Source: Candidatus Thalassarchaeum betae (GTDB taxonomy: Archaea > Thermoplasmatota > Poseidoniia > Poseidoniales > Thalassarchaeaceae). From it: a DNA stretch of 43,450 nt. The notes beneath the pieces were generated by a model. That model was not told the origin of the DNA and searched no databases. It worked only from the letters and a program-made list of their open reading frames with translations. The DNA lies in the NCBI GenBank assembly GCA_022447095.1, contig JAKUUP010000012.1:1-43450 (forward strand). The letters are read 5' to 3'. Position numbers and translations under genes: made by a program. Positions 27,125 through 33,680 of the stretch are shown in pieces; positions within the stretch are counted from its first letter, which is position 1, and each line of letters begins with the position of its first letter.

Positions 27125-27164
27125 CCTATTCAAGGTGGGTAGACATGTTCCCTTAGGTGTTAGT

Positions 27165-27980
27165 GTGAGCAGGGTAAGTGTATACTCAAAAAGACTACTC
27201 GTGTTAGGAGTAATTGCGCTGTTCGCAGCGGGCGGTGCTCAAGGGTGGCCAACTGGTATCGGAGGTGATGCTGATGAGAAAGGGGAAGTTCCCTTGTCCG
27301 GATGCACCTGCCACAGCGAATTGCCTGACAATTCGGTCACGGTCCTCATAGACGGGCTACCTTACCACTACGAAGCAGGGATTGAATATCCACTGATGAT
27401 TCAACTCATCGGAGGACCCGAAATCGATGCTGCTTCCAATACCGGAGGATTCTCCATGCTTGTCAGCGCTGGCACTCTGGCAGCCGGAGACGATTTCGGT
27501 GACCTAGTTCAGAACTGGGAGGGTGACCAAACGACTTTGACTCACACAAATGCTGGCTCGAAGACGGAGGACAGGTCATGGCTCATCGCTTGGACGGCTC
27601 CCTCAGCGGGTGAGGAGGAAGTGACCTTCTGGCTTGTCGGAAACTCGGTCAACGGTGATCTGGCGCCCTCTGACCTCGACAGGTGGAACAGGCTTTCCGT
27701 ATCGATAGACGAGGGAGACGACAACGGCAGGACTAGAGTCATATTCTCAGGAGACGGAGATATCGAGCCGCCGGCCCCTATCGGCCACGGAGTCGATATC
27801 CACGAAATGGGGGCAGGCCTCTTGGCCCATTGGCTGGGTCTGCTCGGCTTCGCCGCAGTCATGATCGTGCTGTTATTCTGCGGACTCTTCCTACGCTACG
27901 GCTTCTCTCGTCACTACTCTGGACGCAGTAACCTGCTGAAACTGCGAATCAAGCACCTCCGCAGAGGTGATCAACTTTGA
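27165..27980 (+). CDS. Exported reeler-like protein with CxCH motif
   Basis: First gene of the respiratory operon, 271 residues. The GTG at 27165 is chosen because AGGTG lies five bases upstream and the TATA box fits; it begins a signal peptide (KRLLVLGVIALFAAGGAQG). After GWPTGIGG comes GCTCHS, a CxCH motif (Cys 47 and 49, His 50) where related bacterial and archaeal proteins have a c-type heme CxxCH. Residues about 60-195 resemble the reeler/choice-of-anchor domain: NTGGFSMLVSAGTL, then SWLIAWTAPSAG and VTFWLVGNSVNGD. A C-terminal transmembrane helix (about 232-258) and a basic cytoplasmic tail follow. It could be an extracytoplasmic electron carrier replacing cytochrome c, but heme binding by CxCH is unproven. 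Confidence 0.75.
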   Translation: MSRVSVYSKRLLVLGVIALFAAGGAQGWPTGIGGDADEKGEVPLSGCTCHSELPDNSVTVLIDGLPYHYEAGIEYPLMIQLIGGPEIDAASNTGGFSMLVSAGTLAAGDDFGDLVQNWEGDQTTLTHTNAGSKTEDRSWLIAWTAPSAGEEEVTFWLVGNSVNGDLAPSDLDRWNRLSVSIDEGDDNGRTRVIFSGDGDIEPPAPIGHGVDIHEMGAGLLAHWLGLLGFAAVMIVLLFCGLFLRYGFSRHYSGRSNLLKLRIKHLRRGDQL

Positions 27981-28426
27981 AGGATGATATAGTGATGAGG
28001 CTACTCAAGCAGGTCAAGTCCGGAGAGGTCAGTCTAGACGATGCTCGCGCTGCGCTTGAGGAAGTCAGCCTCTCAGAGGATGCATACAATGCGGCCTTGG
28101 ACCACGGGGTGTTCAACCACCCTCATCCAGGCACGGTAGTCAGAGCTACAATTTCGCCATCTGGCGAATCGATACTCGTGATTCTTCTCGCCTTATGGGG
28201 GGTCCTGTGGACTCTCTTCTGGGCCGGCTCCCTGACCTATGGCCTGTTCAATGGATGGGATCAGCAAATCCTGTCGTTCAGCATGGGGATGACCTTACTG
28301 ACCGTAATCATACTCGGGATAGTGTACCTCAAGTACGTCTTGCCCGATGTAGTAATTGTCAAGCATCGTGGTAACAAATACATCACTCCAAACGACCCTG
28401 AAGGATGGAAGGATTACGAGGTGTAA
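27977..28426 (+). CDS. Small membrane protein of the Rieske/cytochrome b operon
   Basis: A 149-residue protein with an N-terminal helical segment (VMRLLKQVKSGEVSLDDARAAL, resembling short SHOCT-type helices) and two transmembrane helices (about 64-90 and 97-120). A TTG start is used: it overlaps the previous stop as TTGA and is preceded by a full GAGGTGA six bases upstream. The family is not recognised. Its place between the CxCH protein and the Rieske protein suggests an accessory subunit of the same complex. Confidence 0.68.
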   Translation: MKDDIVMRLLKQVKSGEVSLDDARAALEEVSLSEDAYNAALDHGVFNHPHPGTVVRATISPSGESILVILLALWGVLWTLFWAGSLTYGLFNGWDQQILSFSMGMTLLTVIILGIVYLKYVLPDVVIVKHRGNKYITPNDPEGWKDYEV

Positions 28427-28428
28427 AA

Positions 28429-29283
28429 ATGGCAAGGAGATTTCGACTTCGTCCCGTTCCGGGTGCTGAGGAAGAGCTTGGTGAATCGCCCAAGTTGATA
28501 GACCGCAGGGAATTCATGCGGCACTCGTTCAACACTGCCGCTGGAGTCATCACCATGGCCAGTCTGGGGGCCGTTGGATTCGCCTCCCTGCTGATGGGTC
28601 AATCCGATGCCGACGGAGGGGACACATCTGTCCGTTTCTGGGTCCCTAGCGGTGCTGAGGACACGGCATGGTACGGAGACAAGCATCTAGAGCCTATGTC
28701 ATTCCAGTCCTTCGTCGACGAGGCTGCTTCCTCTTCGACCGGAATGTCGGGCGCCTCTGGTGTTTGGTCGGGGCTGCCTGTGAATGTCATGTACGTCCCT
28801 CACACCGAGAACGCACAGGCCCCCCTAGTCGAGAACAAGCCTCGCTTCCAGTTCATGGACGGATACAACGAGAGCGGGGCCTACATCGGCTCAGGATATG
28901 ATGTGGATGAGGATCCGGCTTACGAACTACTGTCGATTCACGACAACATGATTATCATATTCTCCAGATGTCCACACCTTTGTTGTATACCGGGGTGGCA
29001 ACTGGTTGCCAACGACTTCACCAGTGACCAATGGTTTCCAGGAGGGGTCGATGCAGGAGGGAACAAACTGTTCTGTATCTGCCACTCGAGTCGGTACGAC
29101 CCGACTGTGATTGAGAAGAACAGGAACCGGAACAGAACAGATGGGACTGAGTTCGACTATATCGGGATTAGACGTACTGGAGGCCCCACTCCGGTCGGGA
29201 TGCCTCTAATTCCCTTTGAAGTGAAAGGGGATATCATTGAGGCTATGGACGACTTCAAGGACTGGTACACGTATTGTGCGTAG
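28429..29283 (+). CDS. Rieske iron-sulfur protein
   Basis: High-potential 2Fe-2S subunit of a cytochrome bc-type complex, 284 residues. The N terminus has a twin-arginine signal (DRREFMRHSF, Arg 26-27) followed by a hydrophobic anchor. Cluster ligands are C181-P-H183 in CPHLCC and C216-I-C-H219 in CICHSS; Cys186 and Cys218 would form the usual disulfide. Residues 60-165 between the anchor and the cluster are longer than in bacterial Rieske proteins. ATG 28429 is chosen because GAGGTG precedes it and because the upstream in-frame ATG lies inside the previous gene. It takes electrons from quinol at the Qo site made by the two following genes. Confidence 0.93.
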   Translation: MARRFRLRPVPGAEEELGESPKLIDRREFMRHSFNTAAGVITMASLGAVGFASLLMGQSDADGGDTSVRFWVPSGAEDTAWYGDKHLEPMSFQSFVDEAASSSTGMSGASGVWSGLPVNVMYVPHTENAQAPLVENKPRFQFMDGYNESGAYIGSGYDVDEDPAYELLSIHDNMIIIFSRCPHLCCIPGWQLVANDFTSDQWFPGGVDAGGNKLFCICHSSRYDPTVIEKNRNRNRTDGTEFDYIGIRRTGGPTPVGMPLIPFEVKGDIIEAMDDFKDWYTYCA

Positions 29284-29292
29284 GGTGGTAAG

Positions 29293-30159
29293 ATGATTCA
29301 ATTCTGGTTCCTGTGGCTGTTCATCGCGATTGTGGTCGTCATAGTCGCATTCACACTTCGTAAGGAGAGAGATGACATGCCTAGAACTGATATCCTGCGT
29401 GCAGTGGAAAGCAGTGCTGGCAGTATGGGCCTCGCCGAGAAGGCTTTTCTCTGGGCCTTCTCGTGGCTAGACACGCGGTTCAGGATCCAAGACTACTGGG
29501 GTATGAGTAGAGACTCCTACCACCACATGCACAGGCAGATGCCCCTGACCCACGCAGAGAAGTACAAACTGCGGATAATCTGGTACTGGTACCCTCTGTA
29601 CTGCCTCGGTGGCATTTCGTTCCTCGCGTTTGTCATCCTAGTGATATCGGGAACGATTCTCGGACTCTACTATGTCCCGGGGGGCGACGGCACCCCTTCG
29701 CCGGCCTACCTGAGTATGGAATTCATCATGGTCGAGTTACCATTCGGTTACATCATGAGGTCTATTCACCACTGGGGTACTCACTTCATGGTGGCATCGG
29801 TGTTCCTGCATATGTGTAGAGTATACTTCACCGGAGCCTACCGCAACCCCCGGGAGTTGAACTGGCTAATAGGGGTCGCCTTGATGTTCTTCACCATCTT
29901 CTTCGGCTATTCTGGTTACTTGCTTCCTTGGGACAGTCTCGCATTCGGCGCGGCTACCATTGGCATCAACATGGCCAACTCGACTCCGCTGATTGGGGGT
30001 TGGGTGGCCAAAGCCATGTTCGCCGGCACGACTCTATCTGCGCAGACGGTCGTCAGAATGTACTTCCTTCATGTGTTCATCCTGCCTGTGATTGTGACAG
30101 CGCTGATTCTCGCCCATCTGTTCATAGTCTGGGTTCAGGGCATAGCGGAGCCGCATTGA
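29293..30159 (+). CDS. Cytochrome b6-like subunit
   Basis: A 288-residue di-heme membrane protein of the cytochrome b6 type, with an additional N-terminal hydrophobic helix (1-21). Heme ligands are visible as His159 in SIHHWGTH and His173 in LHMCRVY (14 apart), and His260 in FLHVF and His275 in AHLFIV (15 apart). The sequence GAYRNPRELNWLIG and GYLLPWD are standard for the family. It transfers electrons across the membrane between the two quinone sites. It ends just before the last helices of a full cytochrome b, which are supplied by the next gene 12 bases downstream; GGTGG precedes its ATG. Confidence 0.94.
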   Translation: MIQFWFLWLFIAIVVVIVAFTLRKERDDMPRTDILRAVESSAGSMGLAEKAFLWAFSWLDTRFRIQDYWGMSRDSYHHMHRQMPLTHAEKYKLRIIWYWYPLYCLGGISFLAFVILVISGTILGLYYVPGGDGTPSPAYLSMEFIMVELPFGYIMRSIHHWGTHFMVASVFLHMCRVYFTGAYRNPRELNWLIGVALMFFTIFFGYSGYLLPWDSLAFGAATIGINMANSTPLIGGWVAKAMFAGTTLSAQTVVRMYFLHVFILPVIVTALILAHLFIVWVQGIAEPH

Positions 30160-30171
30160 GGAGGTAATGAG

Positions 30172-32955
30172 ATGGGAATGATAGACAAGTTCGGGAGGAT
30201 TGCTGACACCTACATCAGCGAGAGGGACCAGTTGCTCGAGGCTGACGAAGAAAGGAAAAGGGTGTTCGTCGGACACTCTTTCTGGCCCACTGAGGTGCTT
30301 CGTGACAGTATCATACTGGCTGCGATGATGGCCGTCATCGCGTTCTACTCGTGGATAATACCTCCTCCACTGCACAGCGCGGCAGATCCGTTCGCCCAAG
30401 CGGGCTTCGTCTTCCCTGATTGGTACGTGCTGTTCTCCTATGGGTATCTGAGATGGGGCGAGTACCTCCCTCAGTACGTGATCCCAGCTGGACCTATAGG
30501 GGCCTTCTTCGGTACGCCCGTGATAGCGTGGAATGCCGGTTGGTGGGGCGCCTTCCTGACCGGTTTTCCCGTAGGCATTCTCGCTCTGCCACCGTTCCTC
30601 GGAGGGAGGGAGAAGCGTGGTGTTGAGGACCCGTGGTTCGCCACCGCGGGCGCGGTCTATCTGGCCCACGTCTGGTTCATCTCGGTTTTCTCGATCAACA
30701 TCTTCCTTGAACTGTACTCCAAGGACCTGAGCAACTACTGCTGGATCAATTCACACGGCGCTCTTTTCTGCGGGAGGCAGGCCCCGTGGACGGCAGAAGT
30801 GTTCAACGCCATACCCTGGGTTCTGACTGGCATCTTCGTCTTCGCCGTAATCTACTTCGGCGTTAGGTGGTTCACCCTCAATTCCATTGGAGCGAGGCTC
30901 AATCCTGTTATGGGAAGACAGATTGCGATTGGTTCTTTGATTGCTGCGGTTCTGATTTCTGTGGTCACGTGGCCTATCTACGACGACGGTTTCTGGGACT
31001 ACGGCGGACTAGGCGCGATGGATGATGTCTCTGAATTGGATGCCATGAGAGGGCAACCCTCGGACACGCTTGTGCACCACGGCAAAGGAAATGTCTGGGC
31101 AGAATGGGAGGACGATTGCCTGCCATACTCCGAGACCATGGGGCAAGCCGCGTGGGATGATTTGGGTAATGACGAAGATACGGATGACTGGTGCCTGATA
31201 GCTGCTGCGAATTGGGTAAATTGGGGGCTCTACCAGCCTACCAGAACCGTCCTGATTGACTTCGCTGGTGATAATGGACACGCTGATTCCGAAACCGGAA
31301 GGAATTACGGGGCAATGGAAATCACCTATGTTGGAAACGCTGATGGTTCTTTGTTGACGGTCAGCGAGAGCAGGACTTTCGAGGTAGAGGACCTAGGTGT
31401 CTCAAGTGTCCCTGCAGATGTTGGGTGCAACTTCAGAACCACGGTTAGGGGGGCAGGCACTCACACTCAGAGCATCTCACTCACCGACTCCTCAGGAAGC
31501 ATACTGTGGCAGAATGAGGGTGGTGTTTGCCAATCCACCACCCTATACCTGCGATCGGGTGCCAGTTACACTGTGAGTTTTTCAGCCTCATCGGATGGTG
31601 CTGACGACTCTGTTTCAATGATCACGGACTTCTCTGCTGTTGCTTACCAGCCACTTATACTGGCTGAAGACGGCACTGCATTGATTCGTTCGGAATCCGG
31701 CCTGAGCCTAGAGGAGTTGGTGGTGCTCTCGGTCGAGAATCCAACTTATCACAAAAACCCGAAAACATTGGATGCCAAACTAATCTACACGCTCTTCATA
31801 CCGTGCCTCGGAGTAGGCGCTATCGTCTTCCTAGTCATGCGGAGCATGGCTCGAGGTTACGAGTGGGAGATGAACAAGTGCTACGGATGCGACTTGTGCG
31901 ATGATGCCTGCCCGGTCCGCCTGTTCACCGCTGGAGACAAACTGAATATCATCTACAACACTTGGAACAACGAGGACGACGGTGTCCCTCTGTACTCCTG
32001 CCTCACTTGCACCGCCTGCACCAACGCCTGCCCGCAGTTGGTCGACTACGACTCGTACGTCGACATCCGACGCAACTTAATCGTCGGAGGTCCGCCCGCT
32101 GCGGAGATACCTCACACTCTGCTACAGGCTCTTCTCGCGGCCGAGGCAGAGGAGGATGCCGACGAGGCATTCATCTCAGTTGAGGACTACCCTCTAGACT
32201 CCAATGTCGGGTACTACCCGGGTTGCGTAGACTACATTGATCAGGAGATGATCTTCAGCCATGTCAACGAGGGCACGATGGACCTCGGCGAGACCACGAC
32301 CGCGGCCTTCACTCTGTTCGAGGAGATGAACGAGGATGTCACCTACCTCGGCCGTGACTTCCTCAAGTGCTGCGGCCACGACCAGAAGTGGCAAGGACTG
32401 TCTGAGGTATTCGAGAAACTCAAGGCGTACAACCAGAAGAAGCTTGGAGACAGCGGTATAGACACTCTCGTTACCTCCTGTGCTGAGTGCTTCCGTACCT
32501 TCGCTCTGGATTACGAATTGGACGACATGAAGGTTATGCACACTACCGAGTATCTTGTCGAGAAGGGTTTCGACATGGAACTAGCAACCGATGATGATGT
32601 CACCGTTACCTATCACGATCCCTGCAGGCTCGGTAGGCAGATGAACCTCTATGACAAGCCACGCGACCTCGTGCAGGCTGTTGACGGCGTCAATCTGGTG
32701 GAGATGGAGCACCATGGCGAGGATGCGTTGTGCTGTGGCGTCTCCAGTATGATGGCCTGCAACGAGAACAGCAGGGGCCTGCGTCTGCAGCGTTTCGACG
32801 AAGTAAATGCCACTGGTGCCGACATCATGCTTACCACCTGTCCGAAGTGCGTTGCACACTTCGAATGCCTGAAGTTCGAGGGTGATCCTCGACACGATTT
32901 CGAGATTCTCGACGTTGTCAGTTTCCTAGCCCGCCAAGTGAATTCTAGGCAGTAG
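30172..32955 (+). CDS. Cytochrome b C-terminal domain fused to HdrD-like iron-sulfur module
   Basis: A 927-residue fusion. Residues 1-270 correspond to the C-terminal (subunit IV) part of cytochrome b with several transmembrane helices and the Qo-site motif PDWY (82-85; PEWY in mitochondria). Residues about 271-535 are a hydrophilic beta-rich insertion with Cys 316, 341, 419 and 453, predicted outside the cell. After a helix at 540-557, the cytoplasmic part has two 4Fe-4S motifs (Cys 570/573/576/580 and 610/613/616/620) and two complete CCG domains: Cys 685, 733-734, 770/773 and Cys 818, 854-855, 890/893. This is the HdrD/GlpC/LctE-type layout, whose CCG domains can hold noncubane clusters that act on disulfides in HdrD. 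GGAGGT precedes the ATG. The substrate is unknown. Confidence 0.93.
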   Translation: MGMIDKFGRIADTYISERDQLLEADEERKRVFVGHSFWPTEVLRDSIILAAMMAVIAFYSWIIPPPLHSAADPFAQAGFVFPDWYVLFSYGYLRWGEYLPQYVIPAGPIGAFFGTPVIAWNAGWWGAFLTGFPVGILALPPFLGGREKRGVEDPWFATAGAVYLAHVWFISVFSINIFLELYSKDLSNYCWINSHGALFCGRQAPWTAEVFNAIPWVLTGIFVFAVIYFGVRWFTLNSIGARLNPVMGRQIAIGSLIAAVLISVVTWPIYDDGFWDYGGLGAMDDVSELDAMRGQPSDTLVHHGKGNVWAEWEDDCLPYSETMGQAAWDDLGNDEDTDDWCLIAAANWVNWGLYQPTRTVLIDFAGDNGHADSETGRNYGAMEITYVGNADGSLLTVSESRTFEVEDLGVSSVPADVGCNFRTTVRGAGTHTQSISLTDSSGSILWQNEGGVCQSTTLYLRSGASYTVSFSASSDGADDSVSMITDFSAVAYQPLILAEDGTALIRSESGLSLEELVVLSVENPTYHKNPKTLDAKLIYTLFIPCLGVGAIVFLVMRSMARGYEWEMNKCYGCDLCDDACPVRLFTAGDKLNIIYNTWNNEDDGVPLYSCLTCTACTNACPQLVDYDSYVDIRRNLIVGGPPAAEIPHTLLQALLAAEAEEDADEAFISVEDYPLDSNVGYYPGCVDYIDQEMIFSHVNEGTMDLGETTTAAFTLFEEMNEDVTYLGRDFLKCCGHDQKWQGLSEVFEKLKAYNQKKLGDSGIDTLVTSCAECFRTFALDYELDDMKVMHTTEYLVEKGFDMELATDDDVTVTYHDPCRLGRQMNLYDKPRDLVQAVDGVNLVEMEHHGEDALCCGVSSMMACNENSRGLRLQRFDEVNATGADIMLTTCPKCVAHFECLKFEGDPRHDFEILDVVSFLARQVNSRQ

Positions 32956-33024
32956 TTACGAGCGCCCTGCATAAAGTGACGGCAGGAAGCATACATTGAG
33001 AATGGATGGGCCTTGGTGGGAATC

Positions 33025-33357
33025 GTGACTGAGATACCCGACCTGCTTGCACGGCGCGCCGCCGAGCAGAGCCGCATCAGGAAGCTCCTCAATGCGATGC
33101 GCGCCGAAGAGGAGGCTAAACTCAAAGGAGGGGAAGATGCTGTTGCATGGGTCAAAGAGGAATTGTGCATAGGTTGTGACCAATGCACAATAGTGTGTGA
33201 CGACGACGCCATCGAACTCTACGATACACCAATGGCTAGCCCCATCATGGATGTCGAGGTGAACAGGAAGGCGAAGATACTCCGTGACGAGTGCACCGGT
33301 TGCAGGCTATGCGCCCTAGGATGTCCCACCGATGCGATAATCATGATTGACAGATAG
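33025..33357 (+). CDS. Dicluster 4Fe-4S ferredoxin-like protein
   Basis: A 110-residue protein with a helical N-terminal segment (LLARRAAEQSRIRKLLNAMR) and two 4Fe-4S motifs, CIGCDQCTIVCDDD and CTGCRLCALGCP, separated by about 35 residues. The Pro after the last Cys of the first motif is replaced by Asp. GTG at 33025 is chosen because GGTGG lies six bases upstream; TTG 33013 and GTG 33016 are alternatives. It sits 69 bases after the cytochrome b-HdrD fusion, so it may deliver electrons to or take them from the HdrD module; that pairing is inference. Confidence 0.85.
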   Translation: MTEIPDLLARRAAEQSRIRKLLNAMRAEEEAKLKGGEDAVAWVKEELCIGCDQCTIVCDDDAIELYDTPMASPIMDVEVNRKAKILRDECTGCRLCALGCPTDAIIMIDR

Positions 33358-33365
33358 GCGTTATC

Positions 33366-33680
33366 ATGGATGAAGAGGAGCCCATCAGGTTTGGCGCCGA
33401 GTTCGGGCCGAAGAGGAGCAAGCGATCCAGCGGAGTCTCCCTTTCGACGTTCAAGACACTAGTATGGGTGTCGAACCTAGGTGGCTTAGTGCTGTTCGTC
33501 ATCGGACTTGAGCTGATGGTGGTCCAACAATCGTTCTGGTTCGGACTCGCCTGTATCGTCGCCGGCGTGGTCGTTGCCTTGTTCCCCTCTAACTACGAGA
33601 TAGTTGGTATGGAGGATCTCGAAGAATTTGCGGAAGACTATTCTGCCGAATCATCCATGAACTCTGAAGAGCAGCGGTGA
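33366..33680 (+). CDS. Small two-helix membrane protein
   Basis: A 104-residue protein with two transmembrane helices (about 30-50 and 54-73), a charged N terminus and a very acidic C terminus (EDLEEFAEDYSAESS). No family is recognised. It begins eight bases after the ferredoxin gene and its stop overlaps the next start as GTGA, so it is part of the same operon and may help anchor the electron-transfer complex. Confidence 0.65.
   Translation: MDEEEPIRFGAEFGPKRSKRSSGVSLSTFKTLVWVSNLGGLVLFVIGLELMVVQQSFWFGLACIVAGVVVALFPSNYEIVGMEDLEEFAEDYSAESSMNSEEQR

Follow-up and report, generated by a model that had tools for sequence, protein, structure and literature searches.

A cytochrome b fused to an HdrD-like iron–sulfur module in the complex III operon of a Thermoplasmatota order

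The stretch of DNA analysed here (the window) is 43,450 nucleotides long and comes from Candidatus Thalassarchaeum betae (contig JAKUUP010000012.1). At positions 30172–32955 of its forward strand, a single ATG-initiated frame of 927 residues joins the C-terminal half of a cytochrome b to an HdrD-like iron–sulfur module. The analysis confirms that this fusion is real; it lies within a Rieske/cytochrome b operon of fixed gene order, which bears out the covalent link claimed in an initial annotation of the window. We tentatively propose, with slightly less than even confidence, that the encoded assembly is a complex III with a built-in cytoplasmic input at the inner quinone site, most likely for ferredoxin; both the donor and the direction of electron flow are inferred. 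The order to which the source genome belongs (the home order) is probably Marine Group II (MGII; Poseidoniales), as judged from its phylum, Thermoplasmatota, and from the match to the respiration described for that group (PMC6336850).

Architecture and conservation of the fusion

The 927-residue protein is built from four kinds of segment, all read from the plus strand. Residues 1–275 (30172–30996) correspond to the C-terminal half of cytochrome b, with helices E–H and one extra transmembrane segment (TM), and include the PDWY motif of the outer quinol site (residues 82–85; 30415–30426), which is invariant in 40 of 40 fusions. Residues 276–535 (30997–31776) form a fast-evolving extracellular β-sandwich between two TMs that is confined to the home order. 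The last TM (residues 533–561; 31768–31854), identified by hydropathy, returns the chain to the cytoplasmic side, where an HdrC-like dicluster domain follows with two CxxCxxCxxxCP motifs (C570–C580 and C610–C620; 31879–32031), assigned by PF13183 and an HdrC profile match. Two CCG domains complete the chain: CCG1 (C685-X47-C733-C734-X35-C770-X2-C773; 32224–32490), assigned from PF02754, cysteine spacings and alignments, and CCG2 (C818-X35-C854-C855-X34-C890-X2-C893; 32623–32850), assigned from PF02754 and spacings. Hydropathy analysis places the TMs at residues 40–67, 126–145, 157–182, 208–239, 245–271 and 533–561, so that six predicted helices flank an extracellular domain of ~260 residues and the iron–sulfur part begins after the last of them. 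Because an odd number of helices precedes the extracellular domain and one follows it, the iron–sulfur part is predicted to be cytoplasmic.

Pfam recognises only the soluble end of the window protein, with CCG matches (PF02754) in two stretches at an E-value of 1.5e-21 and the 4Fe-4S dicluster (PF13183) at 2.9e-7; the first 536 residues have no Pfam match. A profile built from 40 family sequences extends the assignment: it matches subunit IV of the b6f complex (2e74_B, E 5e-5) and bc1 cytochrome b, as well as HdrC (9sfi_E, E 1.5e-6; also 5odc_C), HdrB and EtfD (E 3.6e-34), and all of these matches fall in the expected segments. In two fused relatives from other families, the petD family PF00032 is detected above its cut-off (L047, E 1.4e-4; L048, E 7.8e-10). 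The cytochrome b assignment of the N-terminal part follows from these two observations, the family profile matches and the PF00032 hits.

All cluster-binding cysteines are present, as the initial annotation had noted, and they are conserved. The eight dicluster cysteines are invariant in 40 of 40 aligned fusions. Of the CCG ligand cysteines, ten in all, nine are equally invariant and C734 is present in 39 of the 40. Two additional cysteines of CCG2, C863 and C899, are likewise invariant, and E772 of CCG1 occupies the position of a cluster-ligating histidine in EtfD. Both domains approximately fit the CX31-39CCX35-36CXXC pattern of HdrBC/HdrD, CCG2 with X35/X34 and CCG1 with X47/X35, the first spacing of CCG1 being longer. 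In a structure model computed from 40 sequences, the fusion reaches an overall predicted local distance difference test score (pLDDT) of 71. Foldseek relates the CCG region of the model to EtfD (E 7e-13), LutA (5e-10) and HdrB (1e-7). Matches to aspartate/glutamate racemases were set aside as probably a chance likeness of the duplicated α/β CCG fold. The extracellular insert is modelled at a pLDDT of ~90 and has a weak match to a GOLD/propeptide-like β-sandwich (Foldseek E 8e-5).

The conservation survey covered 98 genomes of the home order, from two families and 19 genera. The whole fusion is uninterrupted in about 85 of them, at roughly 60–89% identity, and G060, a single contig of 2.06 Mb, carries it in one frame. 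The remaining genomes mostly hold contig-end fragments or frames locally broken in drafts (e.g., G011 and G088); two draft genomes show no fusion. Such broken frames, and an incomplete second copy at the end of a contig in the window's own genome (L002), are what might suggest an assembly join or a frameshift, an origin to which we give next to no probability. The fusion cannot be an assembly join because it is intact in so many genomes, one of them single-contig, and the junction itself (residues 520–580) is conserved, with no less than 72% identity inside the home family and no less than 74% when that family is compared with the second. Intact frames and a conserved junction thus exclude a break between the two halves. 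The dicluster is the most conserved segment (mean identity of 92% and 86% in the two families), and the lowest values are those of the extracellular insert (54% and 33%). The insert evolves far faster than the remainder of the complex, with 33% mean identity between the two families against 86% for the dicluster. The second copy in the window's genome, on the 3.1-kb contig C47, is partial and comprises Rieske, cytochrome b and the start of the fusion at 81–94% identity; it is probably a piece of a sibling population's genome that was binned with this one.

The operon and its variants in related families

Seven genes make up the operon, in the order Reeler-like GCxCH protein, DUF7318-like protein, Rieske protein, b6-type cytochrome b, fusion, RnfB-like ferredoxin and two-TM protein, all on the plus strand. 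The N-terminal cytochrome b half (29293–30159; PF00033, E 4.7e-40) has haem ligands H159/H173 and H260/H275 at the b6 spacings of 14 and 15, and the cysteine of its YCLGG motif, C104, is the counterpart of b6 Cys35, the site of covalent haem ci; ligands and cysteine are invariant in six sequences from four families. The Rieske protein (28405–29283) is identified by its CPHLCC and CICHSS ligand motifs and by a below-cut-off match to TIGR01416 (E 4.4e-9). Among 30 sampled genomes of the order, 29 have a PF00033 cytochrome b, essentially one per genome, and only two have a second copy, the window's own (on the 3.1-kb contig) and G010. It follows from this single cytochrome b that the operon encodes complex III itself, not a side complex.

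The RnfB-like 2×[4Fe-4S] ferredoxin (33013–33357; TIGR01944, E 2.2e-12, below cut-off) is a candidate donor or docking subunit. Its gene adjoins the fusion in nearly all loci examined, including those of the sister family described below and L047, and in most loci the gene for a small two-TM protein (33366–33680) stands next to it; in the second family of the order the pair is usually convergent with the operon. No cytochrome c1 or f gene is present in the operon, and the first position is taken by the Reeler-like protein (27135–27980), a ‘choice-of-anchor V’ protein with one C-terminal TM and an invariant GCxCH motif, assigned from NF041895 (E 2.6e-23) and synteny. Its residues C57, C59, H60 and H137 are invariant in 16 sequences, and the best Foldseek match of its model is the reeler domain of F-spondin (E 1.3e-6). 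CxCH is not the canonical haem c motif. The protein is possibly an unrecognised metal- or haem-binding redox partner of the Rieske protein on the positive (p) side of the membrane. The DUF7318-like membrane protein (27977–28426) matches PF24002 at 1.5e-5, just under the cut-off, and its position is kept in both the MGII-type and the sister families.

Outside the home order, the module occurs in more than one form. Within the same class, a sister family (L049, L050, L051 and L083), which we take to be Marine Group III, has the same operon, in which the cytochrome b C-terminal half and the dicluster stay one protein and the CCG pair has a gene of its own. Another two Thermoplasmatota families encode the full fusion but lack the extracellular insert (L047, 789 residues; L048, 606 residues); L049 lacks the insert too. 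The single gene described in the initial annotation thus holds for all close relatives and recurs in these two families, while the sister family, with its separate CCG gene, departs from it. The fusion of L047 is followed by a four-cluster ferredoxin, and that of L048 (family f25) by an HdrA-like flavoprotein (L048:5435-6379; NF040770, E 2e-17) whose gene is cut by the contig end. What all these loci have in common is cytochrome b joined to the dicluster; the CCG pair may be part of the fusion or stand apart, and the gene that follows encodes either a ferredoxin or an HdrA-like flavoprotein. In the sister family and in L085, one CCG1 cysteine is lost, the motif reading CSGHD in L050, L051 and L083 and CAEG in L049 and L085. 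A contig scan with the protein of family f22 retrieved the protein itself and one more Thermoplasmatota contig, a result that, given the single-sequence patterns used, has little bearing on other phyla.

Electron input and competing explanations

The proposed path would begin on the cytoplasmic side, where the module may form an HdrC–HdrB-type wire with two cubane clusters near the membrane and two CCG clusters beyond them. Reduced ferredoxin, the most likely donor, would deliver electrons through the RnfB-like ferredoxin of the operon into the CCG and dicluster clusters, from which they could pass to haem bN/ci and so reduce quinone at the Qi (inner) site. The quinol thus formed would be oxidised at the outer site through the Rieske protein in the usual Q cycle. 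One complex would then double as quinol oxidase and built-in ferredoxin:quinone reductase, much as cyclic electron flow feeds into b6f. Because the dicluster comes immediately after the last TM, is better conserved than any other segment and remains fused to cytochrome b in the sister family, it is likely to provide the electrical contact with the membrane. By homology to EtfD, whose clusters and haem b connect the cytoplasm to quinone as a wire (PMC13083937), it should join the CCG clusters to the haems of the negative (n) side, bN and ci.

Three observations point to ferredoxin as the donor: the conserved ferredoxin gene of the operon, the 2-oxoacid:ferredoxin oxidoreductases of the order, whose γ subunit is found in 28 of the 30 genomes, and the absence of NuoF, the NADH-binding subunit of complex I, from 28 of the 30. 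The latter two suggest that catabolic electrons largely arrive as reduced ferredoxin. The two genomes with a PF01512 (NuoF) protein are G016 and G068; the scarcity of NuoF conflicts with published accounts of a ‘canonical NADH dehydrogenase’. Several points weigh against ferredoxin input through the fusion. Ferredoxin oxidation does not require CCG domains, which elsewhere face flavins or disulfides; that they are present suggests an additional two-electron partner, or another one in place of ferredoxin. The HdrA-like gene comes next after the fusion in L048, and no adjacent ferredoxin gene is seen before the contig ends. The single-contig genome G060 (locus L077) has its ferredoxin/two-TM pair ~14 kb away from the fusion, with the two genes still together at that distance. 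Lastly, the dicluster, through which electrons would have to reach the haems, is poorly modelled in the fusion (pLDDT ~30).

The initial annotation had suggested a single complex as the route for electrons between the quinone pool and a substrate in the cytoplasm, either a thiol/disulfide or an organic acid; the idea of such an exchange is supported, the substrates it named are not. We consider it unlikely, while ranking it first among the alternatives, that the CCG clusters act as those of HdrB/HdrD do, by oxidising a dithiol of the cytoplasm or reducing a disulfide, and exchange the electrons with quinone. Each CCG domain of the home order has all five cysteines of HdrB, among them the CCG1 cysteine replaced by threonine in EtfD, and Foldseek and profile searches both return HdrB. 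However, the loss of one or other CCG1 cysteine in the sister family and in L085 means that two-cluster disulfide chemistry is not conserved, the operon lacks a thiol-cofactor gene, HdrA is missing from 40 of 40 home-order genomes searched, and open Hdr clusters are expected to be oxygen-sensitive, whereas MGII are described as obligate aerobes. An organic-acid dehydrogenase acceptor, in which lactate, glycolate or glycerol 3-phosphate would be oxidised by a separate flavin adenine dinucleotide (FAD) subunit, is very improbable. GlcF, GlpC, LdhH and TfrB do appear among the NCBIfam matches, all far below cut-off, but the operon has no dehydrogenase gene and FAD-oxidase_C (PF02913) is absent from all 30 relatives, while 11 of 14 control genomes match it.

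Electrons could also run the other way. Quinol would then be bifurcated at the outer site, the high-potential electron going to the Rieske protein and the low-potential electron through bL, bH and ci into the iron–sulfur arm to reduce a cytoplasmic acceptor. A close analogue has been proposed for the b6-like complexes of anammox bacteria, which carry a cytoplasmic NAD(P) oxidoreductase and an iron–sulfur chain (PMC12954380), and the HdrA-like neighbour in f25 is consistent with it. This scheme would require unusually low haem b potentials, the home-order operon has neither an NAD(P)- nor a flavin-binding subunit and its genomes no HdrA, and the sole complex III of an aerobe must run an ordinary Q cycle as well; we place its probability below that of thiol/disulfide exchange. 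Lower again comes a form in which the Rieske/oxygen branch would drive a low-potential electron outward through ci, the dicluster and the CCG clusters to a cytoplasmic carrier, so that the respiratory chain would make reductant directly. There is little probability that the module is an EtfD-type acceptor of β-oxidation electrons, i.e., an electron-transfer flavoprotein (ETF):quinone oxidoreductase, a role ranked just above the organic-acid one. Its nearest solved relative is EtfD (9ojn), and ETF α and β were found in 29 of the 30 genomes. Against this role, a separate EtfD-like protein exists in the window's own genome and in most relatives, G066 keeps the fusion with no ETF match, the fusion lacks the EtfD signature (CC and CAEC, not CT and CPHC), and the genera g3 and g8, which have no EtfD-like protein, mostly have a FixX-like ferredoxin (PF05187). 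The separate protein in the window's genome (L003:469-2526) has 685 residues and the cluster signatures CSG and CPHC. In most genomes examined, one or other of these proteins would account for the transfer of ETF electrons to quinone, and the pattern in g3 and g8 suggests a swap of ETF:quinone systems.

Relation to known systems

According to surveys of MGII, its members ‘lack canonical complex III’, and their RnfB is an orphan, RnfACDEG being absent (PMC6336850). The locus may explain both in one way: complex III is present, its C-terminal half is hidden in a fusion unseen by Pfam, and an RnfB-like ferredoxin, which we take to be the orphan RnfB, lies in the operon. If the home order is MGII, the carriers are among the most abundant uncultured marine archaea. 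The covalent link would hard-wire complex III to cytoplasmic redox carriers. Whether soluble carriers exchange electrons with haem ci/bN is debated for cyclic flow through b6f and for the anammox complexes; here the question can be put to a single polypeptide. The initial annotation went too far in presenting such a link as without precedent: cytoplasmic redox arms on Rieske/cytochrome b complexes have already been proposed or noted, in Angelarchaeales (PMC9038741) and in anammox bacteria (PMC12954380). Searches of the open-access literature yielded no description of the covalent fusion, of its order-wide presence as the sole complex III or of the split form, and the fusion, its conservation across the order and the split form are apparently new.

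Among the closest precedents is that of the Angelarchaeales, which are also Thermoplasmatota and in which hdrD-like and rnfB-like genes beside those of complex III led to a proposal of ferredoxin entry in 2022 (PMC9038741). Rieske/cytochrome b, hdrD-like and RnfB-like genes and the proposed ferredoxin entry are shared with the home order; the Angelarchaeales genes are only proximal to complex III, the evidence is one genome reconstruction, and the text mentions no covalent fusion. Anammox Rieske/cytochrome b complexes carry cytoplasmic NAD(P) oxidoreductases, for which outward bifurcation to NAD(P)+ was proposed (PMC12954380). Like the fusion, these b6-like assemblies combine complex III with a cytoplasmic iron–sulfur module that would link haem bN/cN to soluble carriers; unlike it, they use a separate flavin/NAD(P) subunit and are additional complexes of a multi-complex organism, whereas here the CCG module is covalently attached to the only complex III.

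EtfD from M. smegmatis (9ojn) resembles the fusion in combining a membrane domain with two cubane and two CCG clusters as a wire to quinone (PMC13083937). It differs in having a five-helix haem b domain of its own, a linear [3Fe-4S] cluster (with Thr in place of Cys) and a His-ligated D2, whereas the membrane part of the fusion is the petD-like half of a Rieske/cytochrome b complex and its cysteine sets are HdrB-like. HdrDE and HdrBC share with the fusion an HdrC-type dicluster and two HdrB-type CCG domains; the fusion has no HdrE, its order has no HdrA, it scores below every Hdr equivalog cut-off, and its membrane partner is a cytochrome b. The b6f complex offers a parallel to the membrane part: b6 and subunit IV are split, and the home-order complex shows the same division together with the haem-ci cysteine facing the n-side. 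Subunit IV of b6f has three TMs and no iron–sulfur module. By contrast, the four or more TMs of the fusion place its C-terminus on the n-side, where it carries the clusters.

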